Positions 8,309-62,099 of a DNA stretch of 64,000 bases are shown one piece after another. The stretch is taken from NCBI GenBank assembly GCA_023249635.1, contig JAHFCH010000007.1:1-64000 (forward strand), given 5' to 3'. The DNA comes from Fibrobacterota bacterium (GTDB lineage Bacteria; Fibrobacterota; Fibrobacteria; UBA11236). Within the stretch, counting starts at the first letter, position 1. Every line of letters begins with the position of its first letter. The notes beneath the pieces are model-generated. The model had not been told where the DNA came from and searched no databases. It saw nothing but the letters and a program-made list of their open reading frames with translations. Position numbers and translations under genes: made by a program.

Positions 8309-8327
8309 GCCTCTAAGGCTTTTTTTT
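8307..8327 (+). terminator. Rho-independent terminator after the GH20 gene
   Basis: The stem AAGCC/GGCTT with loop TCTAA is followed by a run of T. It overlaps the GH20 stop codon. It should end the barrel-GH20 transcript and separate it from the chitinase genes. The stem is short, but the T-run is good. Confidence 0.65.
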
Positions 8328-8464
8328 CGGCTATTTTACCGCAAAATCGGCCCAAAAACGCCCATTCGTGGTGAACTGGATTTCATCACTTCTTGTTCCC
8401 GCCTTCTGGACAAAGCCCCCCTGCGGGCATAGGTTGTAACACGGAAGATCGGGAGAGTCTGTAG

Positions 8465-9589: not shown

Positions 9590-9614
9590 GCCCATTCCAA
9601 TGAAAGGCCGCAGC

Positions 9615-10874
9615 ATGGCACTCCGCTCCGCATCCCGCACCTTCACCAAGCTCGCTCCCGCGCTGGCCCTGGCTGCGGCCCTGACGACGCCGGCGCAGGC
9701 GCAGAAGAAGATGAAAGTGGTGGGATTCTATCCCGACTACTCGTCGGGCGGGATTTCCAATACCCAGGCCTCCGAGCTTTCCTATACCATCTATTTCTCC
9801 ATCAAGCCCCCGACCGACGGTAACGTCAGCGATGAGTACATCATCAACAGCATCGACGCGGGCCGCATGATCGACATGGTCGAGCAAGGGAAAAAGAAAG
9901 GCATGGGCGTGCTCCTGTGCGTCGGCGGCGCCGCCGAATCGGCCAACTTCCCGGCCCTGGCCGGCAACGCATCCGCCAGCGCCAAGTTCGCCAGCACCCT
10001 GGCGGCCTTCTGCACCGCCAACGGCCTGGCCGGCGTGGACATCGACTGGGAATTCCCCGGCGGAGGCGGATCGTACGCTTTCACCACCCTCTCCAAGGCC
10101 CTGCACACCGTCTTCGCCCCCAAGGGCCTGTTGCTGTCGACCAACGTCAACGGACCGGACAATTCGCAATACACCGCCGAAGCCCTGCAGCAATACGATG
10201 CCGTCCAGATCATGTCCTATGACAACGATTGGCCGCCGGGCTCCAGCCCCCATTCCACCCTGAGCGCGGCGCAACAGCACCTGGGCAATTACGCCGCCAA
10301 GATCGGTTCGGCCTATAAGAGCAAACTGCTGCTGGGCGTGCCGTTCTTCGGCAAAGGTTCGGGCGTGGAGCCCAAGTCGTACCGCGACATTCTCACCGCC
10401 ACTCCCGGCCTCGATCCGACGCTGGATAATTCGGGCAGCTACAACTTCAACGGCACCAATACCCTGGCGCAGAAGACCAACTACGTCATCGAACAGGGAT
10501 ACGGCGGCATCATGATCTGGAACCTGGTGCAGGATGCGGTGGACGCCCGCCTGCTCACTTCCATCAACACCGCCATCAAAGCCAAGGGTTATGTGGTGGA
10601 CCAGGCTCCCGTACCGATCAACAACCGCTTGCAGCGCGTGGCCCGCGACCTCTACGGCATCCGCCCCTGGGACGGCGAAGGCCGCGTACGCCTGCATAAC
10701 GTCGACAATGCTACCCTGTCCCTCTACTCGCCGGATGGCCGTTCCCTGGGCGCCGCGCATATGACCTATGGCGCCAACGCTCCCCTGCCGCTGGCGGCGG
10801 GACGGGCCCTCTATCGTATCGAAGGCGAAGCCGGGGCCCGGGCAACCGGTTCGGCGGCGACCCTGGGCCGCTAG
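9615..10874 (+). CDS. Secreted GH18 chitinase (second of tandem pair)
   Basis: The GH18 enzyme is about 419 residues from the ATG at 9615. That start has AAAGG 7 bases upstream; an in-frame ATG at 9600 is an alternative. The signal peptide ends near TPAQA. The catalytic motif AGVDIDWEF has its acid Glu at E146, and the product strand QIMSYDND is conserved. It differs enough from the preceding chitinase that the two are not recent copies. The C-terminus is a clear sorting-type beta domain: a linker, then LSLYSPDGRSLG, then LPLAAGRALYRIEG, a pattern like type IX secretion tails (short strand, D-x-x-G-R, strand, final hydrophobic strand). Probably exported to the surface or medium to attack chitin together with its neighbour. 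Confidence 0.85.
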   Translation: MALRSASRTFTKLAPALALAAALTTPAQAQKKMKVVGFYPDYSSGGISNTQASELSYTIYFSIKPPTDGNVSDEYIINSIDAGRMIDMVEQGKKKGMGVLLCVGGAAESANFPALAGNASASAKFASTLAAFCTANGLAGVDIDWEFPGGGGSYAFTTLSKALHTVFAPKGLLLSTNVNGPDNSQYTAEALQQYDAVQIMSYDNDWPPGSSPHSTLSAAQQHLGNYAAKIGSAYKSKLLLGVPFFGKGSGVEPKSYRDILTATPGLDPTLDNSGSYNFNGTNTLAQKTNYVIEQGYGGIMIWNLVQDAVDARLLTSINTAIKAKGYVVDQAPVPINNRLQRVARDLYGIRPWDGEGRVRLHNVDNATLSLYSPDGRSLGAAHMTYGANAPLPLAAGRALYRIEGEAGARATGSAATLGR

Positions 10875-11006: not shown

Positions 11007-13304
11007 TCAGCTGCCCCGTTCCGGATCCGAAGCCGGCCACCAGTTCCACTTCCCCGCCATCCGCATCAACGACGGGACCAACAGAACGCGGATGATGGTG
11101 GCGTCCACGAGCACGGCGACCGCCAATCCCAATCCCAGCATCTGCACCAGCACCACCCGTGCGAATGCGAAAGCGCCGAAAACGGCCACCATGATCATGG
11201 CGGCGTTGGTGATCATGCGACCCGTGGCGGCCACGCCTTCCGCGACCGCGCGGGTATTGTTACCCGTGCTCAGCCAACCTTCGCGTATCCGGCTCAGCAG
11301 GAACACTTCGTAATCCATGCTCAGGCCGAAGAGAATGCAGAAGATCATCAGCGGGATGGTCAGTGGCACCACGTCGGTGGGTCCGGGCGCCCCGAAGAGC
11401 GAAGCTCCGTAGCCCAGTTGGAACACGAAGACCACCATGCCGTACCCGGCCAGCACCGATAGCGCGTTCATGGCCAGCGCCTTGCAGGCGACCAGGGGGG
11501 AACGGAAGAAAGCCAGCAGGGCGGCGAAAGTCACCGCCAGTACGAACCCGATACTGGGCGCATAGGCCTTGCGCATGGAGCGATCGAAATCGTTGTAGTA
11601 GACGGCCTGCCCGCCCACTTCGACGCTGACGCCGGATGGGGCCAGCGAAGGCAGTTTACGCGCCAAGGTCTTCTGCTCCTCGAGCAGCACTTCGGGCTTG
11701 CAGAGCACCTCCATTAACAGGCTGCGGCCGTCCCGGCTCAGGTAGGCGTCGCGCACGAAGGGAACGGTTTCCCAGGCCGCGGCGGTGTCGGCATACAGGG
11801 ACAGGTATTTGGCCACGGGCCATTTGTCGGAAAGATCCACCGGCCCCAGGATGCGCGCTACGGCGGGATCCTTGCGGATGGCCGCGGAGAATCCGTACAG
11901 GGCGGGAATGCGCGAGGAATCCAGGATGCCCCCTTGGGGAGCGGTCAGAATGACATTGATGGGTCGTACCACCGACTCCAATCCCATCTTCTCCAGCATG
12001 GCGTAACCCCGAGTGAAGCCCAACTCCTGGGGGATGAAGGCGCGCTCCGGGAAGCCGAAGCGGGAGTAGCGCGCGGGCCAGGCCAACACCGCGATACAGG
12101 CCAATCCGATGCAGGCGCACAGGGGAGCGCGGCGCATCACCCATTCCGACCAGGCCCGCCAACGGGCTCCCGACCCCGCGCCCGCGAAACGACGGGAAAA
12201 TACCCGCGGCCATTCCAGCGCCCCTCCCAGCACTACCAGTAATGGCGGCAGCAAGGTAAGCGCCGCGGCCACCGACACGCACACCACTATGCAACCGCCC
12301 CAGCCGATGGATCGCGTTTCCATGATGGGCGTGAAAAAGGTCCCGCCCAGCCCGATCATCACGGTAAGGCCGCTCAGGAATACCGCCTGACCCGCCGTGG
12401 CCAGGCACTCCGCCATGGCCTCGCCCTGCAAGCGCCGATCGGGTTTCGCCCCCCGCGCGTCGCCCGCGCGCGCGGCCAAAGCCTCGCGGTAGCGATGCAC
12501 GATGAGCAGGCTATAGTCGATGCCCACGGAAAGCCCGATCATGCTTACCGTGCTTTGCACGATGTTGCTGACCACCCAATGGCCCGCGCACCATCCCACC
12601 GCGGCCATGGCCACCGTGGTCGCAACGATTCCGAGGGAGACGGGAATGCCGGAGGCCGCCACGGAACCGAAGGCGAGCAGCAGGATGATCAAGGTCAGGG
12701 GCAGCACCTTGCCTTCGGCCGCGGCGGTGTCCTTGGTACTGAACAGGTTCAGATCGTAGGTCAGCGCGGCCCGGCCGGTCACGGCCCAATCCAGACCAGG
12801 TCTGCCTTGGCGCACGGGCAGGAGTACCGAATCCACCGCTGCGCGCACGGCCGGGATGGCGAGCTCCGTCTCACGCACTGAAGCGGCTTTGATGCCGATC
12901 AGGATCACTTCGCCGGTGCCGGGCGCGGGCAACAAGCGTTTGTCCAGCATGGTTTCCGTCGTCATCACCGCGCCCGTCCAAGTCAAGCCGGAGAGCGCCT
13001 TATCGAGGCGCCGGACCAGATCGGAAAGCGAATCGGCGGCTGCGGTATCGCGCAGGGTAACCACGAGCAATTGCGAATAAGGGTTGGCGAAATCCGCGTT
13101 GAGCAGACTATCGGCCCGCAGCGAGGCGCTGCCGGCGATGTCTCCGGAGCCGCCGAAAAGCCGCGCCGGGGCCCGCTGGGAAAGCGGAGCGGCCAAGAGC
13201 AAAAGCAGCAGCCAGGCGCCCAGCAGCCACCATGGCCTGCGCGCGGCGAAAGCACCCAGCTTCGCGAACCCACCCGAGGGCGGCTTGCCTGAGAAGGATC
13301 GCAT
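11007..13304 (-). CDS. MMPL/RND-family lipid exporter
   Basis: The 765-residue inner-membrane protein has the two-fold MMPL layout: TM1 at about residues 27-45, a periplasmic domain, a bundle of about five TMs, a second periplasmic domain near 430-570, and a final five-TM bundle. Conserved MMPL segments GLSVGIDYSLLIVHRYRE and LFGLSMDYEVFLLSRIRE are present in the two halves; their Asp-Tyr pairs are the usual proton-relay residues. MMPL and HpnN-type proteins move lipids or hydrophobic products to the periplasm or outer membrane using the proton gradient. It is the last gene of the lipid operon, 4 bases after the SRPBCC gene, so it probably exports the operon's product. The cargo cannot be read from the sequence. 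Confidence 0.85.
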   Translation of the reverse strand: MRSFSGKPPSGGFAKLGAFAARRPWWLLGAWLLLLLLAAPLSQRAPARLFGGSGDIAGSASLRADSLLNADFANPYSQLLVVTLRDTAAADSLSDLVRRLDKALSGLTWTGAVMTTETMLDKRLLPAPGTGEVILIGIKAASVRETELAIPAVRAAVDSVLLPVRQGRPGLDWAVTGRAALTYDLNLFSTKDTAAAEGKVLPLTLIILLLAFGSVAASGIPVSLGIVATTVAMAAVGWCAGHWVVSNIVQSTVSMIGLSVGIDYSLLIVHRYREALAARAGDARGAKPDRRLQGEAMAECLATAGQAVFLSGLTVMIGLGGTFFTPIMETRSIGWGGCIVVCVSVAAALTLLPPLLVVLGGALEWPRVFSRRFAGAGSGARWRAWSEWVMRRAPLCACIGLACIAVLAWPARYSRFGFPERAFIPQELGFTRGYAMLEKMGLESVVRPINVILTAPQGGILDSSRIPALYGFSAAIRKDPAVARILGPVDLSDKWPVAKYLSLYADTAAAWETVPFVRDAYLSRDGRSLLMEVLCKPEVLLEEQKTLARKLPSLAPSGVSVEVGGQAVYYNDFDRSMRKAYAPSIGFVLAVTFAALLAFFRSPLVACKALAMNALSVLAGYGMVVFVFQLGYGASLFGAPGPTDVVPLTIPLMIFCILFGLSMDYEVFLLSRIREGWLSTGNNTRAVAEGVAATGRMITNAAMIMVAVFGAFAFARVVLVQMLGLGLAVAVLVDATIIRVLLVPSLMRMAGKWNWWPASDPERGS

Positions 13305-13308
13305 AGGC

Positions 13309-13887
13309 TTAGGTCCCCGTCTCCACGAGCCGCTTCACGTTGTTCATGTTGCGGACGAAGATATCGTTCACGCGGTACGCCGACAGGTACATGCAGAAGG
13401 ACTCGATCAGTGAAGGTTTCCGATCCTTGAAGAAGAAGGTGAAGGTCAGGCGCATCTTGCCGTTCCCCAAATCCTGGTACAGCTGTTCCGTGGCTAGGCC
13501 CTGGGCGCTTACGGGGAAATCCACGAAGGCGTAACAGATCAGTTGGCGTTTCTTCCCCGGAACCATTTCGGTGATGGTTTCGTCCCAACGCCGCCCGCTC
13601 TCATCGCCCTTGCAGAAGCAGCGCCGACGCGCGCCGGGCTGGCCGTCCTTGATGCTGTCGGCATTGAGCGGTTTGATATGGTTTACGAACACGGACCAGC
13701 GCCGAGCGTTGTCCGAGTTGCCCAGGAAGCGGAACACGGAATCCGGGGTGGCATTGATTTCCACGCTGGTCTTCATCAGGGGATACGCGAACCCCTCCTT
13801 TTTGCCGTATGGGCTTAAGGCGATCGCGGCCGCCAGGCCGAGTACCGATACCGCCACGATTGCGAGCAGGATTTTCTTCCCCGTCAT
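13309..13887 (-). CDS. Membrane-anchored SRPBCC (START/polyketide cyclase-like) protein
   Basis: The 192-residue protein has one N-terminal transmembrane helix (about residues 5-26), followed by a SRPBCC-type domain. The domain opens with KTSVEINATPDSVFRFL and continues through NARRWSVFVNHIKPL, the usual start of this helix-grip fold, which binds hydrophobic ligands in a deep cavity. No catalytic residues can be assigned. Its ATG overlaps the stop of the diiron oxygenase gene (ATGA), and the MMPL exporter follows 4 bases later. A role as a lipid carrier or handling protein between the tailoring enzyme and the exporter is inferred. It could equally be a cyclase or dehydratase. The anchored domain is probably periplasmic. 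Confidence 0.7.
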   Translation of the reverse strand: MTGKKILLAIVAVSVLGLAAAIALSPYGKKEGFAYPLMKTSVEINATPDSVFRFLGNSDNARRWSVFVNHIKPLNADSIKDGQPGARRRCFCKGDESGRRWDETITEMVPGKKRQLICYAFVDFPVSAQGLATEQLYQDLGNGKMRLTFTFFFKDRKPSLIESFCMYLSAYRVNDIFVRNMNNVKRLVETGT

Positions 13888-14861
13888 GCTTGGAACTCCT
13901 CTTTGGTCACCGCCAGGAACATGGGCCAGAGCCCGTCCAGTTCCGGGTACTCGGCGAACAGGGCCATGGCCTTGGGCACGCTGCCGCGGCTGAAGGCCAG
14001 GTCATGGAAATCCCGACTGGTTCCCAACCCGATCAATTCCGAACGCATGGCGGGGATGATTTCCGTCCGCAGGCGCGGGAATTCCTCCCCCAGCATGGCC
14101 ATCACGCCGCCGGGTATGTTCTTGGGATAGACGTATCCGCGCATCAACGCGGTAAACATCTTTCCCGCCAGGCGGCGTTTCCAGGCCGGCTGGGGATCGT
14201 AAAGCCAGGTAAGCAGATGCTGGTCGAGCTGGAAATGCCGGATCTCATCCTTGAAATGGAACTCCTGCACCTCCGTGAAGCTCTCGTCGATGCCGGCGGG
14301 ATCTTCCTTGCGGGCCTTCAGGTAGTTCCGGCAATAGTCCACCGTGCGTTCCTCGAAAAAGATGGCCACCCAAATCCAGGCGATGAACAGCTTGGGCAGG
14401 GAGAGCACCGCGTTCACCAGCATGCGGGTCGCGCGCGGCACCAGGTAGACGCGGAATTCCCTGCGCTTATACCAGGTAGGCTCGGCCTTTTCCAGGGTGC
14501 GCCAGAACATCTCGGTATGCTTGATTTCCTCATCGATGAAGGTATCCAGGGCCGTGCGCAAGGGAGCGGGCACGTCGGCGCGCTTGAGTACGCGCCTAAG
14601 CGTCTTCACCAGGAAGTTCTCTTCCAGCCAGATGATCTGCTCGCAGATGCCCATGGCGTAGAGCTGGTTGCAGCGGCGCTTCTCCTCCGGGGAGAGCTTG
14701 GCATAGGAGGGCAGGTAGTACATGGAGATAAGCTGCTCGGGCGCCCAGAAGCGGCCCCGTTCCACCGGGCGGGCCCAGTCCAGGGCCTCCACGCCGAAAG
14801 CGTTTTCAACCGCCTTACGGTTGAGCACGTCCAAGGTGCCCACGTCCTTGCGCGGTTTCAT
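13884..14861 (-). CDS. AurF-like diiron oxygenase
   Basis: The 325-residue all-helical protein carries a full set of likely diiron ligands: E112-x-x-H115 (in DEEIKHTEMF), E170/E171 (in FFEERT), then H202, E206 and H209 (in EFHFKDEIRHFQ), plus a Glu in the first helix (E80/E81). The H-x3-E-x2-H arrangement in the last helix is the one that distinguishes the AurF/CmlI N-oxygenase family from ordinary ferritin-like enzymes, which have E-x2-H only. The start at 14861 overlaps the upstream stop (ATGA); a longer frame to 15056 lies inside that gene. It probably oxidises a C or N centre on the operon's product. AurF enzymes convert amines to nitro groups, but other members hydroxylate carbon, so the reaction is open. 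Confidence 0.65.
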   Translation of the reverse strand: MKPRKDVGTLDVLNRKAVENAFGVEALDWARPVERGRFWAPEQLISMYYLPSYAKLSPEEKRRCNQLYAMGICEQIIWLEENFLVKTLRRVLKRADVPAPLRTALDTFIDEEIKHTEMFWRTLEKAEPTWYKRREFRVYLVPRATRMLVNAVLSLPKLFIAWIWVAIFFEERTVDYCRNYLKARKEDPAGIDESFTEVQEFHFKDEIRHFQLDQHLLTWLYDPQPAWKRRLAGKMFTALMRGYVYPKNIPGGVMAMLGEEFPRLRTEIIPAMRSELIGLGTSRDFHDLAFSRGSVPKAMALFAEYPELDGLWPMFLAVTKEEFQA

Positions 14862-17515
14862 TCCGCCTCCAACAGGGTTACCGTGCCCGCGCCCGCATCG
14901 ACTTCCACCAGGTCGCCGTCCTTGATGCGGTTGATGAGATTCTCGATGCCCACCACGGTAGGGATGCCCATCTCCCGCGCCACGATGGCGGAATGCGAGA
15001 GCACGGATCCCTTTTCGATCAAGAGGGCGCTGATGGAAGGATATAAGGGGATCCAACCGGGATCGGTGCGGGGCGCCGCCAGGATTTCCCCGGATAAGCG
15101 CAAGTCGTCTTCAGGGGATTTGATGACGCGCACCTTACCCCGGACCTTGCCCGCGCAGCAGGATTGGCCGCGCAGCACGTTGCCCTCGGCATTCCCGATC
15201 GCGGTTTCGGTCGCGTAGGTCTGGCGATGGTACGGCAGGCCCACGGTATGGAAACGCTCCGCAGGCTCGCCTTCGGCCTCGAAGCCGGCGTATTCCTTTT
15301 TGCGCATCTCGGCCACGGCGCGCAAATCCTGGGTCAGGGAGCGGCCTTCGGCATAAGCCTGCAGTTCGGGGATGGACAGGAAGAAAACATCCTCGCGGCG
15401 ATCGAGGACACCGGCATCGGTCAAAGCCTTTCCGTACGACAGCACCAGGCGCCGCACCAGCCCGTACAGGCGGCTGCGGGCGAAGCGCATGGCTTCGCGA
15501 TTGCGGATGTTGCGGGCGGCTCCCTTGCGCACATAGTTGAAAACCAGCGCCCGCAGGGGATTTCCGCGCAATGCCTTGGCGGCCTTGGCTTCCGCGCCCT
15601 CGCGCAGGCCAGCGGAAGAATGTTTCAAGGTGGCCAACGCCATTTCCGGCGCGGAGAAATAATTCTTCAAGGTGGTGAAGATGAAGGCGGGGTCCTCTTC
15701 CAGCGTAGGCACTTCCAGCTTCAGTTCGTTCATCGATCGGCTGCCGTACAGGCGAAGGTACCCGTCCAGCCAGGCCAGGAAATTCCGCGCGCCCGGTTTT
15801 GACGAGGCGCGCACCGCTTCCAGCAGCTTTGCCGCCGGCGTCGCCTGGAACAAAGCCGCCAAGTCCGCATCCCCGCGGATTTCCGCGAAGCATTCCAGGA
15901 TCTTGCGCGTAGGCTCGGTGCTTTCCACGTCGCCCTGGTTGGACAAAAGATCGTTGGGGAAATTGGGATCGTCCGGGGCCACCCATTTGGTGGAGAGGCC
16001 TGCCAGGGTCTTGTAGAAGATCATGGCCAGGCAATCGGCCAGAATGGGGGCCTGCCACCGCTTGGTAAACACCTGTACCATGCGTTCGTGATGCTCCATC
16101 AGGCGCTGGGGGGAAAGGCTGTCCCAGGGCAGCGCCAGGTAGGCCGCATGATTGCGGGCGAACTCGGCCTGGAATCGCCGTATACGCGCCTGGGCCCGGA
16201 AGGCGGACCATGCCACCAGTGCGAGCAGGCGCCCGGCCTCGTAGAGCTGCCCCGGCCCCATGCCGCGCTTGCGCTCCAGGGTCTTGATCTCCATGCCATG
16301 GCGTACGCCCATCATGGTTTCCATGGCCTTGCCGGTGAAGCGGAAGAAAGGCAGGAAGCTCATGGACTTGTACCAGGTCATCAGGTTGTAGTACACGCGC
16401 CCGCGGATAAGCCCCAGGTAGTTGCGCAGCAGCAGTTGGTTGGCTTCCTGCACTTCGCGGCGGATGCCCAGCATGCGGCCGAATTGCTCGTACACTTCCT
16501 GGTAGCCGTGGGTGATCACGGAGAAGGTGAGCGGCGAGGTGAGCCCGTTGTAGCTCTCCACGATGTTGGAATTGTCCCACAGGATCTTGCGGCCCCAGCG
16601 GGCCCGCTCGCCCTTGTCGCCCAGGGTGATGGGCCGCGCCTGCAACAGGTAGAGGCGCCCGGCCAGGAAGGTGAATTCCAGATCCAGGGGTTGCCCGTAA
16701 TGGGCCTCGATGGCGAGGGCGGCATGCTTAAGCGATTCCAATTGCCCGCGATCCAGGCAGGGCTTCCCTTGCATGGCTTCGGCCACGGCCGCCTCGACGG
16801 TGCCGGAGGCGCCCGCGGCGGCCAGCCGCAGGGGTTTGGCGACCACGCGTTCCGCGTAGAGGCCCGCATCCCGGGACAAGGTGAATTGATCCCCTTCGTA
16901 CCGGCCCGAGACGATGCCCTCGCCCAAGCCCCAGGTAGCGGAAACCACAAGTTCGCCGACGTCGCGCGTCACCGGGTTTGCCGTGAAGCAGACTCCCGAA
17001 ACCTCGCCGGAAACCATGGCTTGCAGGACCACGGCCATGGGCGGCGTGGGCAAGGCGAAGCGTTGCCGATAGGTTACGGCGCGATCGGAGAATACCGAAG
17101 CCCAGCAGCGCAATACCGCGTCCAGCACGGCACCCGCATCCGCGGCGGGAACGTTCAGGACGGTTTCGAATTGGCCCGCGAATGAGGCCTCCGCCGCGTC
17201 TTCGCCCAGGGCGGAAGAGCGGACGGAGAGGAAGGCATGGCCTTCGGCGAGCAGAGCGCGGCGATGGGATTCGATTTCGCCGCGGAGTCCGGCATCGGTC
17301 TGCAAACCCTGGATGGCGGCGCGCAGGGCGGAGGCATCCGCGGTGGCGGCCTTGGCGTCCACGACCGGTCCCGCGCTGCGGCGGAACCAGCCGGCGTCCA
17401 ATACCCGGAAGGGCGGAACGGTTACGTGAGGCAGGCGCGCAAGGATGCGCAGGTTGGCGGCTTTACCGCCTTCTTCCGCATTCGCGGCCGGGGTGGGCAT
17501 CGCGGTCTCCTTCAT
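14858..17515 (-). CDS. PEP-synthase-like phosphotransferase (rifampicin-phosphotransferase architecture)
   Basis: The 885-residue protein has an N-terminal PPDK/PEP-synthase ATP-binding domain (residues 1 to about 300; LSVRSSALGEDAAEASFAGQ near 96-115, then LYLLQARPIT at its end). A long helical middle (about 310-770) has no recognised domain, and a C-terminal swivelling phosphohistidine domain follows, with the phospho-carrier His at H841 in VLSHSAIVARE. The PEP/pyruvate TIM barrel of true PEP synthases is absent. This is the layout of rifampicin phosphotransferase: ATP to His, then His to a non-pyruvate acceptor. In this operon it probably phosphorylates a lipid or alcohol intermediate (inferred). 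Its ATG overlaps the UbiA stop (ATGA). No signal peptide; cytoplasmic. Confidence 0.75.
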   Translation of the reverse strand: MKETAMPTPAANAEEGGKAANLRILARLPHVTVPPFRVLDAGWFRRSAGPVVDAKAATADASALRAAIQGLQTDAGLRGEIESHRRALLAEGHAFLSVRSSALGEDAAEASFAGQFETVLNVPAADAGAVLDAVLRCWASVFSDRAVTYRQRFALPTPPMAVVLQAMVSGEVSGVCFTANPVTRDVGELVVSATWGLGEGIVSGRYEGDQFTLSRDAGLYAERVVAKPLRLAAAGASGTVEAAVAEAMQGKPCLDRGQLESLKHAALAIEAHYGQPLDLEFTFLAGRLYLLQARPITLGDKGERARWGRKILWDNSNIVESYNGLTSPLTFSVITHGYQEVYEQFGRMLGIRREVQEANQLLLRNYLGLIRGRVYYNLMTWYKSMSFLPFFRFTGKAMETMMGVRHGMEIKTLERKRGMGPGQLYEAGRLLALVAWSAFRAQARIRRFQAEFARNHAAYLALPWDSLSPQRLMEHHERMVQVFTKRWQAPILADCLAMIFYKTLAGLSTKWVAPDDPNFPNDLLSNQGDVESTEPTRKILECFAEIRGDADLAALFQATPAAKLLEAVRASSKPGARNFLAWLDGYLRLYGSRSMNELKLEVPTLEEDPAFIFTTLKNYFSAPEMALATLKHSSAGLREGAEAKAAKALRGNPLRALVFNYVRKGAARNIRNREAMRFARSRLYGLVRRLVLSYGKALTDAGVLDRREDVFFLSIPELQAYAEGRSLTQDLRAVAEMRKKEYAGFEAEGEPAERFHTVGLPYHRQTYATETAIGNAEGNVLRGQSCCAGKVRGKVRVIKSPEDDLRLSGEILAAPRTDPGWIPLYPSISALLIEKGSVLSHSAIVAREMGIPTVVGIENLINRIKDGDLVEVDAGAGTVTLLEAE

Positions 17516-18444
17516 GAGGCATATCCCTTCGCGATAAGCACGGCGAGCAGGCCGAGATAGAATTGCAGATAGAATAGGGCCGCCACCTTGTCGAGCTTAC
17601 GGCTGATGCGATCATCCATGCGCGTACGCAGAAATGCGAAAAGCCCGGCGACTATCAGCCAGGTTACGGCCGTGCTGATCAGGAACCAGATGGGCAAGCC
17701 CAAGGCCTTCCGCAGCAGGAAGGTGAAGGCCAGCACGGCGGCCTGGAAACCCGAAGACAACGCCAGCGATCCGGTGATTCCCAGTTCCTTGGAATAACTG
17801 TCCGCTCCGGGCTTTTCCTCCTCGGGCACGCGAATCTTGCGGGCCACTTCCAGGGAGAAGGTCATGCAGAAACCCAGGAAGGCGAAGAGGATGAAATCCG
17901 GGATGCGGATCAAGGCCCCATGGCCCGTAGGCATTTGCAGGATGGTGAAATCCATGCAAGCCATGATGAGCATATGCGAGATGCCGTACCAGAACAAATG
18001 CCGCTTGAGCCACTCGCGGATGAAGAATTCCTTGAACATGAGCAGGGAGTAGGCCAAGGTGGCGAAATGCAGGATTAGGATCTTCGAGCCCAGATACCCC
18101 GCACAGGCGGTTTCCACCGCGATGGCCAGGAATCCGGTAACGGCCAATTGACGGTAGCTCACCAACCCGCGGCTAAGGACGCGTTCGGGGTAGGTGGCCA
18201 CGTCGGCCTCGCGGTCCTTGATATCGTCGAGTACGCGCAGATGGTAAAAGAGGCAGACCATCCACAAGTACCCGGCCAGGTACGGTAACGGACCGGGTAC
18301 GGGAGTCCCGAACATGCGGGCCGAGGCCATCAGGGTGCAGGAATAGAGCAGGAAGGCCAGGAAGCCGTTCAATGCCAACGGGAACCGTTCCGCCAGGTAA
18401 AGCCGGTATGCCGGGAATGATGGAAGTGACGGGAATATACTCAC
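17512..18444 (-). CDS. UbiA-family membrane prenyltransferase
   Basis: The 310-residue polytopic membrane protein (about nine hydrophobic helices) has the first Asp-rich motif D73-D74-x-x-D77 in RVLDDIKDREAD, which binds the Mg-diphosphate of a prenyl donor in UbiA enzymes. The second motif region is weaker (SYSKELG after GAD, near residue 200). The GTG start overlaps the ligase stop (GTGA), and an uninterrupted frame upstream belongs to the ligase gene. Family members attach prenyl chains to quinone rings, haem, chlorophyllide or, in archaea, geranylgeranylglyceryl phosphate. HMG-CoA reductase and phospholipid enzymes in the same operon make a lipid acceptor attractive, but the acceptor cannot be assigned from sequence. 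Confidence 0.8.
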   Translation of the reverse strand: MSIFPSLPSFPAYRLYLAERFPLALNGFLAFLLYSCTLMASARMFGTPVPGPLPYLAGYLWMVCLFYHLRVLDDIKDREADVATYPERVLSRGLVSYRQLAVTGFLAIAVETACAGYLGSKILILHFATLAYSLLMFKEFFIREWLKRHLFWYGISHMLIMACMDFTILQMPTGHGALIRIPDFILFAFLGFCMTFSLEVARKIRVPEEEKPGADSYSKELGITGSLALSSGFQAAVLAFTFLLRKALGLPIWFLISTAVTWLIVAGLFAFLRTRMDDRISRKLDKVAALFYLQFYLGLLAVLIAKGYAS

Positions 18445-20147
18445 GCTTGCCTCTCCGCGGAGCGTGCGCGGGACTTGGCCGCGACGCCGGGTTGCTTCGC
18501 CAGCCAAGTGCGCAGGCGATCGTATTCGACCTTGGAATTGTGCCGGGGATCCATAGGTAACGCCGGAGATACCCGGATGCCGTCCAGGGGAAAGGCTTCC
18601 AGGGCCCGGGCCAGCGCGGTCTCCAGACCCGCATCCCGGGGACCCGGCAGCAATTCCACCACCAGCCAATGGGAATCGTTGATCGCCAGGTAGGCCGATT
18701 TCCTCACCCCGGGGAATTCGTCCGCGATGCATTCGGCCTGATAGGGAAACAGGAAGGGCCAGGCGGAGGGCTGCGGGGATTGGGAAGCCTGCGCTTGCCG
18801 ACCCTCGCCGGCTGCCGCCCCAGCGGCGCGCGGATTGGCCATGGCGGCATGCACGCGACCCACCACCCATAGGCGCCCTTGGGCATCGAAGTATCCCGCA
18901 TCGCCCATGCGGTGCCAAATCCCCTCCGAGGTCTTGATCTTGTTGGCGGCTTCGCCCGCGGCATTGTTCCAATATCCGGTATTCACGTGAGGACCGCGGG
19001 CCACGATTTCCCCTACGCTTCCCTGGGGCAAGGCGCGCGCGGCCAAATCCCGGGCCTGGGAATCCTGGTTGCCCAACGGCAAGATGATCACCTGCAGGGA
19101 TGGCACGGGCCGTCCCACGCAAAAGCCGTATCCCCGCGCCGACAGCGCGCGGCATTCCCCCAGGGCTTCCTGGGCCGCGATATGCGAGACCGGTTCCACC
19201 TCGGTGGAGCCGTAGACGATGGTGATGGCGGCATTGGGCCAGGCCCGGGTCAGCTTGTCCATGGCCCGGATGGTGATGGGCGCGCCGCCCGTGAACAGAT
19301 GCCGCACCGAGTCGTACGGGATCGCCGCGGCTGCGGCCTCGTCGGCCAAGGCTTCGAGGTAGGCGGGTGACCCGGACATCAATTCCGGGCGCCAGGCCTG
19401 CAATTGCCGGCGCACCGCGCCGCGTCCCGCCTCGCGTACCTTTCCCGACTTGAAGGCGGGCACATAAGTGGTGCGGCCCCAACCCAGGTTCTCCAACGGC
19501 AGCACGGGGAAGCCGGGAAAATCGGTCGTGAAGGCGGCGCGTTCGGGATTGTACAGGGCCATGCGCTGGGCGCGGATGAATCCATGCGTGCGATTGCTGC
19601 CCTTGGGGGAACCCGAACTGCCGGTGGTAAAGGAGATCAGCGCGGGCGCCGTCGATTCCACCAGGGTCAGTTCGGTTTTCGCGCCAAGATGCCGGGCCAC
19701 GAGTTTGTCGAATGACAGCGCCAGGAATCCCGGCAGGCCTCCGGTGGCGATGCGGATGCGGGCCTTGCGCAGGTTGGGGCACAGCGCCAGGAACAGGAAT
19801 CCCTTGGGCACGCCGATGAATGCCTTGGGTTGCACCGCCGCGCAACACGCGTCGAAGCGTTTGGCGCCCATATAAGGATCGACGAATACGCAAACCGCGC
19901 CCAGGCGCATCACGGCCAGGATGGACAGGTACAGGGGCGCGCCCATTGGAAGCAGCAGGAGCACACGATCGCCCTTGCCCACGCCCTGCCCGGCGAGACC
20001 CGCCGCCAATGCCGACATGCGCCGCCCGAATTCGGAGTAGTCCATGCGGGTTTCCCGGCCGCGCGCGTCCCATTCCACCAGAGCCGCTCGCGAGCCGTGC
20101 TCGCGGACCATGGCGTCGACGTCGTCTACCACGTTCTCCAGGCTCAC
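18441..20147 (-). CDS. AMP-dependent ligase, OleC-like (ANL superfamily)
   Basis: The 568-residue adenylating enzyme has the P-loop FTTGSSGSPKGS (173-184), the adenine-binding YGSTE (313-317), the ribose-binding Asp in HRMGDAG (416), and a C-terminal catalytic Lys at K539 in PMDPRHNSKVEYDRL. The D-x-R-H-N-x-K ending and overall length resemble the OleC branch (olefin beta-lactone synthetases and related fatty-acid ligases) more than ordinary acyl-CoA synthetases. It would activate a carboxylic acid as an acyl-adenylate. No acyl-carrier protein, OleA or OleD is present nearby, so an olefin pathway is not supported. GTG start, overlapping the upstream GNAT gene's stop (GTGA); residues 435-462 are a low-complexity Ala/Ser/Gln insert. 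Substrate unknown. Confidence 0.75.
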   Translation of the reverse strand: MSLENVVDDVDAMVREHGSRAALVEWDARGRETRMDYSEFGRRMSALAAGLAGQGVGKGDRVLLLLPMGAPLYLSILAVMRLGAVCVFVDPYMGAKRFDACCAAVQPKAFIGVPKGFLFLALCPNLRKARIRIATGGLPGFLALSFDKLVARHLGAKTELTLVESTAPALISFTTGSSGSPKGSNRTHGFIRAQRMALYNPERAAFTTDFPGFPVLPLENLGWGRTTYVPAFKSGKVREAGRGAVRRQLQAWRPELMSGSPAYLEALADEAAAAAIPYDSVRHLFTGGAPITIRAMDKLTRAWPNAAITIVYGSTEVEPVSHIAAQEALGECRALSARGYGFCVGRPVPSLQVIILPLGNQDSQARDLAARALPQGSVGEIVARGPHVNTGYWNNAAGEAANKIKTSEGIWHRMGDAGYFDAQGRLWVVGRVHAAMANPRAAGAAAGEGRQAQASQSPQPSAWPFLFPYQAECIADEFPGVRKSAYLAINDSHWLVVELLPGPRDAGLETALARALEAFPLDGIRVSPALPMDPRHNSKVEYDRLRTWLAKQPGVAAKSRARSAERQA

Positions 20148-21172
20148 GTCGCGCCTTTCATCAAGGCATAGGTGCGGATGGATCTGGCCACCACCTTGGC
20201 CGACATGTCGCGGGAGGTATTGTCGGTTTTCATGTAGGCATGCAGGATGGCCTCATGTCCCCGCTCCAGCCAATAGCGGTGGAACCGATAGGCGAGCCCG
20301 AAGCCCAGTCCCAGGCGGCGGAAGTCCGGATGCACCCCGACGGTTTTCAGGGAAGCGGTCTTACGGGCGGGGCCATCCGGGCGGCCGCGATAAGACCCGA
20401 TGTCGTACCCGTAGGCGAACCCGGCATACCTGCCGCCGGCCCGCGCCATCACGAGTACGGCATCGGCGCCTTTGCCGTCCCCGGCCAGGGCCAGGAATTC
20501 GTCGAGAGCGATGGGCGTATAGGCGAAGTTGCCAGGGAAGATTTCCAGGGACATGCGGTGGATTTCCGGAAGCAAGGCGGGTAAATCGCGCCCGGCCAGC
20601 ACGGTCAGATCCAGGCCCCGCATGCGCGCCTCGATGGCCTTGGCCACGCCGGTATCCATGGTGGAGGCCGCGTCCTCGACCCAAGTGGATTCGTATTCCC
20701 CGATGTCGGCGAAACCCGCGGCCAGGAAATCGGCATGGTAGTTTTCCGGCAGCTTCTGCTCCCCGGGAAAGTAATCGGTGTCCCCCATGCGGCTGATGAA
20801 GCGATAGGGATGCCAAGTGGAGAATTGCATGGGCCCGGTGATTTCGGCGATGCCGCGCCCGCGGCACCAAGCCTTGACCGCGGCCAGGAAGGCCGCCACC
20901 ACGGCCGCATCCAGGCCGGCGTCGCGGGCATACAGGCAGAACAGGGATTCGCCGCCGCCACTCGGCAGCCAGATCGCCATGCGGGCCTCCGGGCCTTCGC
21001 CGCCCGTCCATACGAGCAGGCGCAGATCCCCGCGCGCGCGTTGCGGCGATTCCGGGCCCAGCCAACGCGCCTCGTAACCCGCCTGGGACGTATCCCATAG
21101 GTTACCTAAGAGGCGCTCTCCGGCGGCCGTGAACGCGGGTTGATCGGTTTCCTCCAGGCGGGCAACCGTCAC
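20144..21172 (-). CDS. GNAT-fold acyl/acetyltransferase-like protein
   Basis: The 342-residue protein has a C-terminal GNAT domain with the acyl-CoA pyrophosphate-binding motif in VGVHPDFRRLGLGFGLA (R-x-x-G-x-G type, near residue 280). The N-terminal half is a second GNAT-like region with GPMQFSTWHPYRF (113-125). The start is the GTG that overlaps the HMG-CoA reductase stop (GTGA); a longer open frame up to 21394 lies within the reductase gene and is rejected. It sits between HMG-CoA reductase and the AMP-ligase, so it may transfer an acyl group made by the pathway, probably to an amine. No substrate can be assigned. Soluble and cytoplasmic. Confidence 0.65.
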   Translation of the reverse strand: MTVARLEETDQPAFTAAGERLLGNLWDTSQAGYEARWLGPESPQRARGDLRLLVWTGGEGPEARMAIWLPSGGGESLFCLYARDAGLDAAVVAAFLAAVKAWCRGRGIAEITGPMQFSTWHPYRFISRMGDTDYFPGEQKLPENYHADFLAAGFADIGEYESTWVEDAASTMDTGVAKAIEARMRGLDLTVLAGRDLPALLPEIHRMSLEIFPGNFAYTPIALDEFLALAGDGKGADAVLVMARAGGRYAGFAYGYDIGSYRGRPDGPARKTASLKTVGVHPDFRRLGLGFGLAYRFHRYWLERGHEAILHAYMKTDNTSRDMSAKVVARSIRTYALMKGAT

Positions 21173-22455
21173 TTGCCGGGACCCCGGGCCATGGCCTTGT
21201 GCGCCTGGGCGAAATGCCCCGCCGCGATGGCCGCGGTAATCGAGATTTCCCCCGCCATGATCATGCCCGCGCAGATTTCCGCCAGCTTGGAGGCTTTGCC
21301 CGGTCCATAGCAATCCATCAATTCCAGGCATTCGCGCTGGGTGGGCAGGCTGGTGCCGCCGCCTACGGTGCCTAAGACCAGGTTGGGCAGACACACGCTC
21401 ACCAGCAACGAGCCATCGTCTTCCACGGCGTACTCGGTAAGCCCGACCGCGGCTTCGGCGGTGCAGGCCGCGTCCTGTCCGGTGGCGATGAACAACGCCG
21501 TCAGGCCGTTGGCGTAATGGCTTTGGCTGCCGATGGCGCCGCTCTGCACCGATGCCACCATGGAAACCTTCCAGGCATCATACAGATCCTTGGGCTTGGC
21601 CTTGAGTACGCCCACGCAAATGTCCTCGGGGATGCGCGCCTCGGCCGTCACGCGCTTGCCGCGGGTATGGATGAAGGAAAGTGCCGTGGCTTTCTTGTCG
21701 CCGGACATGTTGGACTCGATGTACCAGCGCTTCATGGGGACCGGCGTGTTGGCCGCCAGCCAATGGCCCACCGCATCCGAGGCGATGGTCACCATGTTCT
21801 GGCCCGAAGCGTCGCCGGTGGAGTATTCCAGGAAAAGCACCACGTCCTGGCCATTGAGGGTGATGTTGACGTCGACCAGCTTGGCGTAACGGCTGGTGCT
21901 CTCCGCGACCTCTTTGATCTTGGGTTCCTGGGAAACCACCCAGGCGCCGAACACCAAGGCGTCGCACATATCCTTGAAGATGAAGATGGGCGCGCGCCCG
22001 ATCTTTTCGATGATGCAGGCCGCCGCCACGCCGCCGCTTAAGGTAATGGCCTTGCAGCCGCGGTGGAAGGAGGCGACCAAGGCCGCCTCGGTGGTGGCCA
22101 GGGGGATGAGGAAATCCCCTTTGGCATTGAGGCCGTTGACGCGCAGGGGCCCGGCAAGCCCGACGGGGATGGTGCACAACCCAACGAAATTCTCGATGTT
22201 GCGCGCGTAGACGGCGTCGTCCATCACCGGGGGCTGATCGCCCGTGACCTTGGGTAAAGACTTGCCCTGCTTGGCCAGCGATTGGCGCAACACGCTCGAT
22301 CCCCCCGCGGCCATTTCCTTCATGGCCGGCAAGGTCGCTTCCAGGGGATGATCCTGGAGGGAGCGCGGACGCAGTCGCGAAGCCAGCTCCTGGATGCTGG
22401 TGGTTTCCAGGTACTTCTCGCGGACTTGCTTAAGGTATTCGATTCGGGTGGTCAT
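21169..22455 (-). CDS. Class I-type HMG-CoA reductase
   Basis: Predicted to reduce HMG-CoA to mevalonate with NAD(P)H, the committed step of mevalonate isoprenoid synthesis. The 428-residue protein has ENFVGLCTIPVGLAGPL (89-105), the catalytic Glu in ATTEAAL (E123), the Lys in SGDKK (K254), the Asp in ATGQDA (D328), GTVGGGTSLPTQ (362-373) and the C-terminal catalytic His in AHKAM (H419). These motifs and the length fit soluble class I enzymes (archaeal and some bacterial), not the class II bacterial type. The ATG at 22455 has AAGGA at good spacing; an in-frame upstream start would overlap the cytidylyltransferase gene. No other mevalonate gene is in the window. Its place in a lipid operon suggests dedicated supply or an unusual HMG-like substrate. 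Confidence 0.9.
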   Translation of the reverse strand: MTTRIEYLKQVREKYLETTSIQELASRLRPRSLQDHPLEATLPAMKEMAAGGSSVLRQSLAKQGKSLPKVTGDQPPVMDDAVYARNIENFVGLCTIPVGLAGPLRVNGLNAKGDFLIPLATTEAALVASFHRGCKAITLSGGVAAACIIEKIGRAPIFIFKDMCDALVFGAWVVSQEPKIKEVAESTSRYAKLVDVNITLNGQDVVLFLEYSTGDASGQNMVTIASDAVGHWLAANTPVPMKRWYIESNMSGDKKATALSFIHTRGKRVTAEARIPEDICVGVLKAKPKDLYDAWKVSMVASVQSGAIGSQSHYANGLTALFIATGQDAACTAEAAVGLTEYAVEDDGSLLVSVCLPNLVLGTVGGGTSLPTQRECLELMDCYGPGKASKLAEICAGMIMAGEISITAAIAAGHFAQAHKAMARGPGK

Positions 22456-22469
22456 GGGAAATCCTTGGT

Positions 22470-23366
22470 TCAGTACTGGAAGGGATGGCAATAGCGCACG
22501 GCGATGAAATACGCGGGCCCGAGCCAGAGCAGGCTATCGGCGCGATCGAGCATGCCGCCTTGGGCGCCGAGCAAGGCGGAGAAATCCTTGATGCCAAGCC
22601 TGCGCTTGACCCACGAGGCGCTGATATCGCCCAGGAAGGCCAACGCGCCTACGCCCAGGCCGATTTCGATAGTCGATTGCAGCAGGCGCCCGATTCCGTC
22701 GGGAGGCGTGGCGGGAGGAAAAGGAGTAGGGAATACCAGCAGCGAACCGGCGCAGGCGGCCGCGGCGCAGCAGGCCAGGCCGCAGAGGAATCCGCTCCAG
22801 GTCTTGCCGGGGCTTGTCCGCGGCGTGATTTTCGGGCCCCGCAGGATTTCGCCCCAGATTTGCGAATAGCCGTCGAAGATGGCGACGAGCAGGAAGAGGA
22901 ACGCCAGCACGGGGTTTCCGCGCATCGGGTCGGATGAAGCGGCGAAAAGGTAGCCGACGATGGCGAGGGCGAACAGGACGAGGATCCCGTACGCGGGAAG
23001 GGGCCGGAATCCGTATCCCGCAGGGTACCCCGTAGAAACCCGCAGCGCGCGGATTTCCATCAGGGAATACGCGAACAGGATAACCAGGAAGGTCGCGAAG
23101 CCGATCCAGGTCCAATAGGCGAGGGTAAGCAGCAGGATTTGGAAGCCGGCGAAGGCCTTCAGCTTCTGGGCGATGCCGGCCTTGAGGGGACGCAGGGTAG
23201 CTTGCGATGCGGTCGTTTCCGCAGCCTGCGCGCTTCCGGCGCCCGCAGCGTGTCCGGTGGTCAAACCGCGCGCGACGCGTTTGAGCAGAAACCCCGCCGC
23301 CACCGTCACTACGAAAAAAGCCATCATGCGCAGATAGCCGCCCAGGCCTGGATCCAAATCAATCAT
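22470..23366 (-). CDS. CdsA-like CTP:phosphatidate cytidylyltransferase
   Basis: The 298-residue polytopic membrane protein has both hallmarks of the cytidylyltransferase family: TSPGKTWSGFLCG (184-196) and the C-terminal signature starting SWVKRRLGIKDFSALL (251 onward) and ending GGMLDRAD (270-277). It would activate a phosphatidic-acid-like lipid with CTP to give a CDP-lipid for the phosphatidyltransferase encoded two genes upstream. The usual His of the HGG motif is replaced (GAQGG, Q269), which may reflect a different lipid. The ATG overlaps the lipid kinase stop (ATGA). Archaeal CarS enzymes belong to the same broad family, but this protein's motif is closer to the bacterial form. Confidence 0.85.
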   Translation of the reverse strand: MIDLDPGLGGYLRMMAFFVVTVAAGFLLKRVARGLTTGHAAGAGSAQAAETTASQATLRPLKAGIAQKLKAFAGFQILLLTLAYWTWIGFATFLVILFAYSLMEIRALRVSTGYPAGYGFRPLPAYGILVLFALAIVGYLFAASSDPMRGNPVLAFLFLLVAIFDGYSQIWGEILRGPKITPRTSPGKTWSGFLCGLACCAAAACAGSLLVFPTPFPPATPPDGIGRLLQSTIEIGLGVGALAFLGDISASWVKRRLGIKDFSALLGAQGGMLDRADSLLWLGPAYFIAVRYCHPFQY

Positions 23367-24286
23367 GGTTGGACGGCCGCGTCGCCTGTGAAGGCAACGG
23401 GCACCCGCATGCGCACCGAGCCGCGATGGCAGATCAAATCCCAACGCGCCGCGGCCGGGAAAATCTCACCGTCGCCGTAGCAGGGCACCGGCCGATCGAA
23501 TTCAAGCTCGGCCCTTTCCGTCTCCACCCGTTCCAGCAAGGGTTCGGGCTTAGGGGCTTTGCCCTTGAGCCGCGTCAGCGTGGCCAGGATTCCGCGGGTA
23601 TCCTTATGCATGAATTCGATCAGGTGGAATCTGCCGTCCAAGGCCGAGGTACCCGGGGCCAGCAGCACGCGGCGCCCCATCAGCGGCTGGTTGCAGAACA
23701 GGATGCTTTGCGTGACCGCCTTGCGGGAACGGCCGTCCACGCGGCACAGGTAACCCGTACGTTGCGGGGGCGAGAACAGACCGTGCCAGGCCAGGGTCAC
23801 CAGGTAGATCTTGGCGCGTAGCCCTACCCGGAAAAGCCGGCCCAAAGGCCCGGAACGCAATTTGTTCGCGCTATCCGCCGCCTGGAATCCCAATCCGAAG
23901 CCGCCCCCCGTGATCACGTGGCGGCCATTGGCGGCGATGGTATCGTAGGCCAAGGTCCGTCCGTTCTCCAGGGCGGTCAAGGCCTCGGGCAAGTCCACCG
24001 GAAGGCTAAGGGCATGGCAGAGATCGTTCGCGGTGCCTGCGGCCACGGCGTGCAATTCGATGTCGCGGAAAGCCGCATGCTGGATAACATGGTGCAAGCT
24101 ACCGTCGCCGCCAATCACCACCACCTTGGCGAATCCGTCCAGCAGGCCGGGCCATACCTCCGGAGGACAGTCGGGAAGCGCGCGGAAGGAGACCTCTCCC
24201 CAGTACGGGCGGCCCCGGAAAGCGGCCTCGAGCACTTCGCGTTTACAGCGACCGGCCTTGGGGTTGAACAGGCAAAGGGTTTTCAC
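23363..24286 (-). CDS. YegS/DAG-kinase family lipid kinase
   Basis: The 307-residue soluble kinase has the LCB5/YegS motifs: LFNPKAGR at the N-terminus, the nucleotide-binding VIGGDGSLHHV (D61; a GGDGS variant of GGDGT), and AGTANDLCHAL. The family phosphorylates diacylglycerol or related lipid alcohols using ATP. The GTG start overlaps the upstream gene's stop (GTGA); the frame continuing to 24430 is inside that gene. Its product, a phosphatidic-acid-like lipid, would be the natural substrate of the CdsA-like enzyme encoded next, so kinase, cytidylyltransferase and phosphatidyltransferase form a consistent three-step route to a phospholipid. The exact lipid acceptor is not evident. Confidence 0.8.
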   Translation of the reverse strand: MKTLCLFNPKAGRCKREVLEAAFRGRPYWGEVSFRALPDCPPEVWPGLLDGFAKVVVIGGDGSLHHVIQHAAFRDIELHAVAAGTANDLCHALSLPVDLPEALTALENGRTLAYDTIAANGRHVITGGGFGLGFQAADSANKLRSGPLGRLFRVGLRAKIYLVTLAWHGLFSPPQRTGYLCRVDGRSRKAVTQSILFCNQPLMGRRVLLAPGTSALDGRFHLIEFMHKDTRGILATLTRLKGKAPKPEPLLERVETERAELEFDRPVPCYGDGEIFPAAARWDLICHRGSVRMRVPVAFTGDAAVQP

Positions 24287-25011
24287 GGATGCAGGCTTTT
24301 TAAAAAGAAAGCGGCCGCGATAGCCGAGAGTCCGAGTAGGATTACCGCCATCACGATGGGATTCTTCGGTTTGAAAAAGGGCCGATTGATGATGAAGGCC
24401 ACGGACATGACTCCCCAAACCAGCGCGCACGCGGAAAAGAACCAGGCGGAAGCATACGCGAAGACCAGGTACAGGGGAACGAAGAGCAACTGGGACCAGA
24501 ACACGGGGAGCCCCAGATATTTCTTCTCACCCTTGTCGGTGATGTTCCCGATCATGTTGAACTTGGAAAGCCTCAGAATGCCGCAGGCGATCATCAGCAT
24601 GATGAGGGCGCCGGCCGAGGTGCCATGGAAACCCAGGCGCCACAAGGCGAGGTTGGGAATCACCAGGTAATTGAAAACGTCGACGAATCCGTCCAGGTAG
24701 CGCCCGAACTCGCTCTCCCAACGGAACCGGCGCGCGATGAAACCATCGAAGGCGTCGGCCAGCATGCCGAGGTACATCAGGGAGATGCCCAGGAAGAAAC
24801 GATTCTCGCCGGCCAAGGCGGGCGCAAAGGAGTGGCCCGTAGCCAAAGCGGGTACGTCCAGCAGGAGCAGGAATGCCGCGACATCAACGGCCAAGCCGGC
24901 CAGGGTCAGGGCCCCGGCAGGATTGATGCTGACGATGAAGTATCGATTCGCGGAGTCCGGCACTTTCGCTTCCTTCGCTGGAAAAATGCGTTTACCCATC
25001 GGGTTCGTCAT
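24283..25011 (-). CDS. CDP-alcohol phosphatidyltransferase (PssA/PgsA superfamily)
   Basis: The 242-residue membrane protein carries the complete CDP-alcohol phosphotransferase signature: D86, D89, G90, A93, R94, G103, D107 and D111 with the canonical spacing. About six hydrophobic helices follow. It would transfer a lipid-phosphate from CDP-lipid to an alcohol such as serine, glycerol phosphate or inositol phosphate. The long helix distribution resembles phosphatidylserine-synthase-like members, but the acceptor is uncertain. It is the first gene of the eleven-gene operon. No strong ribosome-binding site precedes the ATG at 25011, and an ATG four codons later is possible. A stretch of about 90 bases separates it from the small upstream gene and probably holds the operon promoter, although no clear -35/-10 pair was found. 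Confidence 0.85.
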   Translation of the reverse strand: MTNPMGKRIFPAKEAKVPDSANRYFIVSINPAGALTLAGLAVDVAAFLLLLDVPALATGHSFAPALAGENRFFLGISLMYLGMLADAFDGFIARRFRWESEFGRYLDGFVDVFNYLVIPNLALWRLGFHGTSAGALIMLMIACGILRLSKFNMIGNITDKGEKKYLGLPVFWSQLLFVPLYLVFAYASAWFFSACALVWGVMSVAFIINRPFFKPKNPIVMAVILLGLSAIAAAFFLKSLHP

Positions 25012-61984: not shown

Positions 61985-62099
61985 GGCGTCTCCCCTCCGA
62001 GGCAATGGACCCGGCATGCGGGCCCCTTCCGGAAAATAAAACCTGGCCCGGCCCCGGGGAAAATAACGCGAGGCGGGATGATTAGGTATTTTATACCCC

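Follow-up and report, generated by a model that had tools for sequence, protein, structure and literature searches.

A conserved bacterial operon with a diverged HMG-CoA-reductase-like enzyme as a candidate for the synthesis and export of a prenyl-containing polar lipid

Related lipid pathways and the eleven-gene operon

The archaeal phospholipid route, with digeranylgeranylglyceryl phosphate (DGGGP) synthase, CarS, archaetidylserine synthase, and phosphatidylserine decarboxylase (PSD), is the described system whose logic comes closest to that of an eleven-gene operon in a draft genome of a Fibrobacterota bacterium (GCA_023249635.1; 6.75 Mb, 95% complete). The operon runs on the minus strand from position 25011 to 11007 of the first 64,000 nucleotides of contig JAHFCH010000007.1, a stretch that is called the window hereafter. 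It may encode a self-contained pathway for the biosynthesis and export of an undescribed prenyl-containing polar lipid, a proposal to which we give about even weight. Like the archaeal route, the operon has a UbiA-family transferase, a CDP-lipid synthase, and a CDP-alcohol transferase (genes 7, 3, and 1), and a PSD-like gene accompanies an alphaproteobacterial version. Unlike the archaeal route, the eleven-gene block itself lacks geranylgeranylglyceryl phosphate (GGGP) synthase, glycerol-1-phosphate dehydrogenase, and geranylgeranyl reductase, and it adds genes for a 3-hydroxy-3-methylglutaryl-coenzyme A (HMG-CoA) reductase (HMGR)-like enzyme, an OleC-like ligase, a GNAT acyltransferase, a phosphoenolpyruvate (PEP)-synthase-like enzyme (PEPS), an AurF-like enzyme, and an MMPL exporter. 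The carriers' phylum belongs to a superphylum for which mixed archaeal/bacterial membranes have been proposed; within the FCB group, synthesis of archaeal ether lipids has been proposed for Candidatus Cloacimonetes (PMC7852524).

Like the locus in the window, for which the lipid product is a predicted one, the elb ether-lipid operon of Myxococcus is a bacterial gene set devoted to an unusual lipid and includes AMP-ligase and acyltransferase functions (PMC9131029). The elb genes elbA to elbE encode two epimerases, a HAD phosphatase, a protein of unknown function, and the multidomain ElbD (reductase/ligase/acyl carrier protein/acyltransferase); the window's gene list differs from this published one, and membership in the elb operon was rejected (PMC9131029). 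The AMP ligase of the window falls into the OleC/PRK09274 group known from the OleABCD/β-lactone pathways, but OleA, OleB, and OleD are missing from the block. PigC/RedH and the rifampin phosphotransferase Rph share the PPDK_N plus PEP-utilizer architecture and the catalytic histidine with gene 8; unlike PigC/RedH, gene 8 stands in a block without pyrrole genes, and its closest model is PRK06241.2-2, the role being unassigned. DUF3419, the family of the betaine-lipid head-group enzyme BtaA, fills the head-group position of the alphaproteobacterial operons and is absent from the window operon, which has kinase, CTP-transferase, and CDP-alcohol enzymes instead. No paper on this gene set was found in the open-access literature, which fits the original prediction of an uncharacterized set, now seen to be conserved as well.

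Organization and conservation of the operon

Eight of the ten junctions between the operon genes are 4-base overlaps. Direct reading gives GTGA at junctions 1/2, 4/5, 5/6, and 6/7 and ATGA at junctions 2/3, 7/8, 8/9, and 9/10, exactly the count that the original prediction had given. The two non-overlapping junctions are a 14-nt gap ahead of the HMGR gene (3/4) and a 4-nt gap ahead of the MMPL gene (10/11). An 853-amino acid open reading frame at 17512-20073 is not a single gene and spans the AMP ligase gene, which lies in another frame (18441-20147), and the UbiA gene (17512-18444). The promoter and terminator scan stayed at chance level, with one promoter-like match inside the operon against 3.2 expected by shuffling.

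The same eleven genes in the same order are found in two congeners (G003 and G005), with protein identities of 48-66%. These carriers are “Fibrobacteria bacterium 336R_metabinner_36” (JANYDA010000006.1) and “Fibrobacteres bacterium RYN_349” (JAQBPO010000066.1). Homologs scattered among relatives would have spoken against a single pathway; instead, the search of related genomes gave 11 of 11 genes in co-linear order in both congeners, and together with the junctions this order bears out the earlier view of eleven genes as one coupled unit. The flanks of the two congeners match each other (several genes at 73-83%), and they have no match in the window sequence except for one weak match of 24% far outside the operon. 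Because the flanks differ between the window and the congeners, genes 1 and 11 mark real borders of the block. Every operon gene is under purifying selection, with a ratio of nonsynonymous to synonymous substitution rates (dN/dS) of ∼0.10-0.25 between G003 and G005.

The AurF-like marker gene occurs in only 3 of 168 genomes of the phylum, which are the three carrier species, and the HMGR gene is missing from the other three congeners and from all remaining genomes of a 61-genome set. Since both markers are all-or-none and present in three of six congeners, gain or loss of the block as a whole is suggested. A scan of genome contigs with very specific peptides returned only the two congeners and one weak unrelated match; scans of viral contigs with four profiles returned nothing.

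The HMG-CoA-reductase-like enzyme

HMG-CoA reductase is the textbook enzyme of the mevalonate pathway and the target of statins. Gene 4 (21169-22455) encodes a diverged class-I HMGR-like enzyme (PF00368, E=5e-109) that reaches 324 bits against the TIGR00533 equivalog cut-off of 441.8. The catalytic residues E88, K254, D328, and H419 are retained and correspond to E559, K691, D767, and H866 of the human enzyme. In class-I HMGRs, the contacts to HMG include Ser684, and Lys735 forms a salt bridge with the HMG carboxylate (PMC9500038). All four HMGRs from the operons carry a glutamate at the human S684 position (E247 in gene 4) and a valine or isoleucine at the K735 position. The serine and the lysine are both kept in the human and Methanothermococcus enzymes and in a Streptomyces HMGR from a complete mevalonate operon. 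A phylogenetic tree splits the mevalonate HMGRs from an orphan group that holds gene 4, the Vibrio enzyme, and others (support 98/98).

DXR, a marker of the methylerythritol phosphate (MEP) pathway, is present in the carriers. HMG-CoA synthase (PF01154) was found in none of eight genomes, including all three carriers; the same profile matches in 7 of 14 controls. No mevalonate-diphosphate decarboxylase (TIGR01240) was detected in the three carriers. Mevalonate kinase (TIGR00549) gave no match over the cut-off in the carriers and no match whatever in the genome of the window, and HMG-CoA lyase likewise stayed without a match over the cut-off in the carriers. With these results and the loss of the HMG-carboxylate contacts, the mevalonate-type precursor supply that had originally been assigned to the operon is not sustained.

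A negative residue at the carboxylate site, the lack of the lysine, and the lack of a known HMG-CoA-making enzyme argue for a non-HMG acyl-CoA as the substrate. The most likely role of gene 4 is the reduction of a different acyl-CoA, giving a lipid alcohol for later prenylation, acylation, head-group attachment, oxidation, and export. A conserved operon with a diverged HMGR outside the mevalonate pathway points to a new reaction and a new product. It also suggests a reason why stand-alone HMGR genes, not placed in a mevalonate operon, are retained by some bacteria.

Such stand-alone HMGRs from Vibrio, Alteromonas, and a Streptomyces plasmid lie on the same orphan side of the tree and have lost both the S684 and K735 equivalents, as gene 4 has; unlike gene 4, they have no UbiA/PEPS operon around them at the examined loci. 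Stand-alone HMGRs that share this loss are found at L063 (Vibrio fluvialis plasmid, 6953-8215), at L062, at L070 (Alteromonas macleodii plasmid, 2860-4026), and at L071, and the A. macleodii gene is located near a TonB-dependent siderophore receptor. On the Sinorhizobium meliloti plasmid pMl1 (L064, 2962-12658), an HMGR-like gene appears to share an operon with genes for acyl-CoA carboxylase subunits, indolepyruvate ferredoxin oxidoreductase, and MmgE/PrpD. The encoded protein is also without Lys735 and may be a further case of the HMGR fold serving outside the mevalonate pathway.

A core shared with alphaproteobacteria and its exchangeable head-group genes

A tblastn search with the UbiA protein against 72,556 plasmids returned a single record, the plasmid NZ_CP121116.1 of Roseinatronobacter sp. 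S2, which also holds the best PEPS match. The operon of this plasmid has the order UbiA, PEPS, DUF3419, a 439-amino acid membrane protein, GNAT, and AMP ligase. An HMGR fragment is located at the very start of the circular record, and joining the ends yields an HMGR of ∼420 amino acids, with a 4-base overlap (ATGA) between its stop codon and the start of UbiA. This gene, which spans the record start (1-728 plus the far end; L022/L019), has no entry in the PLSDB gene table. Identities to the window proteins are 43% for HMGR, 33% for UbiA, and 36% for PEPS, and the GNAT and AMP ligase proteins are homologous to those of the window with hhalign probabilities of 99% and 100%. Because HMGR joins the Roseinatronobacter operon, a five-gene core of HMGR, GNAT, AMP ligase, UbiA, and PEPS is coupled in two phyla. 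An assignment of the 439-amino acid protein as a phytol/dolichol kinase, made by eye, was supported by none of Pfam, NCBIfam, PDB, and hhalign and is not used.

A third kind of carrier is an alphaproteobacterial metagenome-assembled genome (MAG; G353), in which a 14.9-kb contig holds PEPS, DUF3419, UbiA, GNAT, and PSD-like genes. The core is rare, with one clear case among 385 sampled alphaproteobacteria, and the best two matches among 399 sampled Pseudomonadota are without the core neighborhood. PEPS matches in Thioclava, Streptomyces clavuligerus, and several proteobacteria were discarded as paralogs in unrelated contexts. A cluster on a Thioclava plasmid (L020, 8807-26454) combines a PEPS-like gene with an acyl carrier protein, aminotransferases, an AMP ligase, and a ketosynthase, adjoins an acyl-homoserine-lactone synthase, and has a prodiginine- or tambjamine-like look.

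The DUF3419 gene of Roseinatronobacter stands in the place of the lipid kinase and CDP head-group genes of the window. DUF3419 is the BtaA-like family, which transfers a 3-amino-3-carboxypropyl group from S-adenosylmethionine onto a lipid hydroxyl. Because the head-group chemistry thus varies around a constant core, we infer a polar lipid with a free hydroxyl, and this is the strongest argument for such a product. At locus L047 (9539-13658), the DUF3419 (BtaA-like) gene is followed by UbiA, GNAT, and PSD-like genes, which suggests aminocarboxypropyl transfer and then decarboxylation.

The remaining core enzymes

Gene 5 (20144-21172, minus strand as all genes of the operon; GTGA overlap with gene 4) encodes a two-domain, tandem GNAT acyltransferase (PF00583), and tandem-GNAT structures are among the Foldseek matches of its low-confidence structure model. 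Gene 6 (18441-20147) is an AMP-forming acid ligase of the PRK09274/OleC-like group (PF00501, E=5e-44) with a C-terminal DPRHNSK motif and 360 bits against NF006754 (cut-off 478). As an OleC equivalog it was rejected, scoring 229 and 189 bits against cut-offs of 900 and 850 and having no oleA or oleD neighbors.

The UbiA-family prenyltransferase is encoded by gene 7 (17512-18444; PF01040, E=7e-10). It carries the metal motif DDIKDREAD and a second motif, E-x2-RK...DTYSK, that is common to the alphaproteobacterial homologs, and the sole confident PDB relative of its profile is a DGGGP synthase (6m31, E=6e-4). Gene 8 (14858-17515; PF01326 and PF00391) encodes PEPS, a PEP-synthase/PigC-RedH-like ATP-dependent phosphotransferase-ligase of 885 amino acids. 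In the alignments, the swivelling-domain His841 within LSHSAIVARE is invariant, and NF004881 is matched with 765 bits (cut-off 883). A role as a PigC/RedH prodiginine ligase was dismissed at 317 of 1300 bits for PigC and 356 of 1350 bits for RedH. Overall, the family assignments made earlier stand, two of them in refined form: the 885-residue “phosphotransferase” is now placed as PEP-synthase/PigC-RedH-type and the acid activator as OleC-like.

Head-group, oxidation, and export genes

Lipid kinase, CdsA-like cytidylyltransferase, and PssA-type transferase together are the standard way by which serine is put on a phospholipid. Gene 1 (24283-25011) encodes a CDP-alcohol phosphatidyltransferase that is PssA/archaetidylserine-synthase-like (PF01066, E=4.5e-13), with an intact DGFIAR-x8-G-x3-D-x3-D motif. 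It scores 70 bits for TIGR00473 pssA and 67 bits for archaetidylserine synthase, both below the cut-off, and its PDB relatives are the PssA structures 7pow/7b1k (E ∼8e-9). Gene 2 (23363-24286; PF00781 and PF19279), a YegS/DAGK-type lipid kinase with a GTG start and a GGDGS motif, overlaps gene 1 by GTGA and has orthologs in the congeners. The CTP-transferase of gene 3 (22470-23366; PF01148, E=6e-32; ATGA overlap with gene 2) is a CdsA-like cytidylyltransferase with 57 bits for PRK11624 CdsA, 31 bits for CarS, and CdsA 4q2g as PDB relative (E=1e-10).

Gene 9 (13884-14861) encodes an AurF-like ferritin-fold diiron oxygenase (PF11583, E=1e-18, 68 bits against a gathering threshold of 29.6). The ligand pattern E112-x2-H115, E171, H202-x3-E206-x2-H209 is invariant and spaced as in AurF; the top Foldseek match, AurF 3chh, is not significant (E=1.3) and comes from a low-confidence AlphaFold2 model. 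The SRPBCC/Polyketide_cyc2 protein of gene 10 (13309-13887; PF10604, E=3e-8; ortholog E=3e-12) has a lipid-binding or cyclase fold and a hydrophobic segment at the N-terminus. Gene 11 (11007-13304; PF03176, E=5e-63) is an MMPL/RND-type lipid exporter that reaches 170 bits for the MmpL3 model, below the cut-off.

Proposed pathway and alternatives

In the proposed pathway, the AMP ligase (gene 6) would activate an organic acid; OleC-type ligases act on β-hydroxy acids. The HMGR-like enzyme would carry out a four-electron reduction of a non-HMG-CoA acyl-CoA to a primary alcohol. Subsequently, UbiA would attach a prenyl chain supplied by the MEP pathway, the GNAT protein would transfer an acyl group, and PEPS would catalyze an ATP-dependent step, either phosphorylation or condensation. 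Gene 2 would then phosphorylate the lipid alcohol, gene 3 would convert it to a CDP-lipid, and gene 1 would couple this to an alcohol resembling serine; in the other carriers, the head-group step may fall to the DUF3419 (BtaA-like) enzyme, alone or together with a decarboxylase. The AurF-like enzyme is predicted to oxidize the product, which the SRPBCC protein and the MMPL pump would carry to the cell surface. The earlier assignment to a lipid-type pathway is backed by the CDP-alcohol transferase, lipid kinase, cytidylyltransferase, prenyltransferase, and MMPL exporter. The idea of a single pathway behind the gene set thus stands, extended to a cross-phylum core, and only the mevalonate-type supply falls away.

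More tentatively, the operon may stand for a novel lipid class of bacterial membranes or cell surfaces: the backbone alcohol would come from a re-purposed HMGR-like enzyme acting on a non-HMG acyl-CoA, a dedicated UbiA clade would prenylate it, the head-group modules would be interchangeable (phospho-serine or homoserine/BtaA type), and the core would be mobile between phyla. A lipid family of this kind, with a fixed prenyl/acyl core and head-group genes that can be swapped, would be an unrecognized one in bacteria.

Several points weigh against the lipid pathway and the re-purposed reductase. The product, the single transcript, and the enzyme activities are predictions, the order of the steps is deduced, and the target of UbiA might be an aromatic compound instead of a lipid. 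G353 has neither HMGR nor AMP ligase on its short 14.9-kb contig. The AlphaFold2 models of the AurF-like and GNAT proteins are poor (predicted local distance difference test scores of 53 and 57). The HMGRs of the Fibrobacteria have a lysine one alignment column away from K735 (a one-column gap) that is absent in Roseinatronobacter, and because this lysine is only one residue away, the lost K735 contact could be partly compensated in the Fibrobacteria. The HMGR tree has 12 rows and long branches; in it, the Roseinatronobacter HMGR groups with Vibrio and not with the Fibrobacteria HMGRs (92/92), so that more than one entry of HMGR into the core is possible. The genomes are MAGs, and absences of genes rest on completeness values of 95-98%.

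Two alternatives survive best, and both are unlikely to a similar degree. In the first, gene 4 would be a genuine HMG-CoA reductase, with mevalonate itself becoming part of the final compound. Activation of mevalonate would fall to the OleC-like ligase and transfer of the mevalonyl group to the GNAT protein, and UbiA and the lipid genes would decorate the result. SidI and SidF activate mevalonate and transfer the mevalonyl group for fungal siderophores. HMGR, AMP ligase, and GNAT, which occur in both phyla, make up the same trio of activities as in this fungal anhydromevalonyl route, and the carriers have no downstream mevalonate pathway to use mevalonate up. The same carriers, however, are without HMG-CoA synthase and without an HMG-CoA lyase over the cut-off, which leaves no evident source of HMG-CoA, and the loss of the HMG-carboxylate lysine and the Ser-to-Glu exchange at 684 speak for another substrate.

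The second alternative is a secreted meroterpenoid, prenylated-aromatic or N-oxygenated, instead of a membrane lipid, for which the lipid kinase and CDP genes would make a lipid-linked carrier or anchor. In its favor, oxidation of aryl amines is the activity of AurF-family enzymes, pyrrole units are joined by relatives of PigC/RedH, and aromatics are frequent substrates of UbiA prenyltransferases. The block, however, has no gene for an aromatic or polyketide core, AurF lies outside the cross-phylum core, and the lipid head-group genes next to that core differ among the three kinds of carrier.

A mevalonate-derived precursor supply for the operon's own prenyltransferase, as originally predicted, would explain why HMGR lies three genes from UbiA and is coupled with it, but this explanation is highly improbable given the missing HMG-CoA synthase and decarboxylase, the lack of a mevalonate kinase over the cut-off, the presence of DXR, and the placement of HMGR in a non-mevalonate clade. 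The idea that unrelated lipid-metabolism genes came together by chance, for which only the unusual mixture of families speaks, is refuted to near certainty by the eleven-gene co-linearity in different contexts as well as by the cross-phylum core and the overlaps.

Genes beside the operon

The operon of the window is surrounded by glycoside hydrolase genes (GH20, two GH18, and GH81) on either side (6179-10874 and 25346-27901), none of which flank the operons of the congeners. Further along, the window (58703-62371) contains a 1222-amino acid open reading frame with alpha-amylase, maltogenic-amylase C-terminal, and maltokinase N-cap domains, which is a trehalose synthase-maltokinase fusion.

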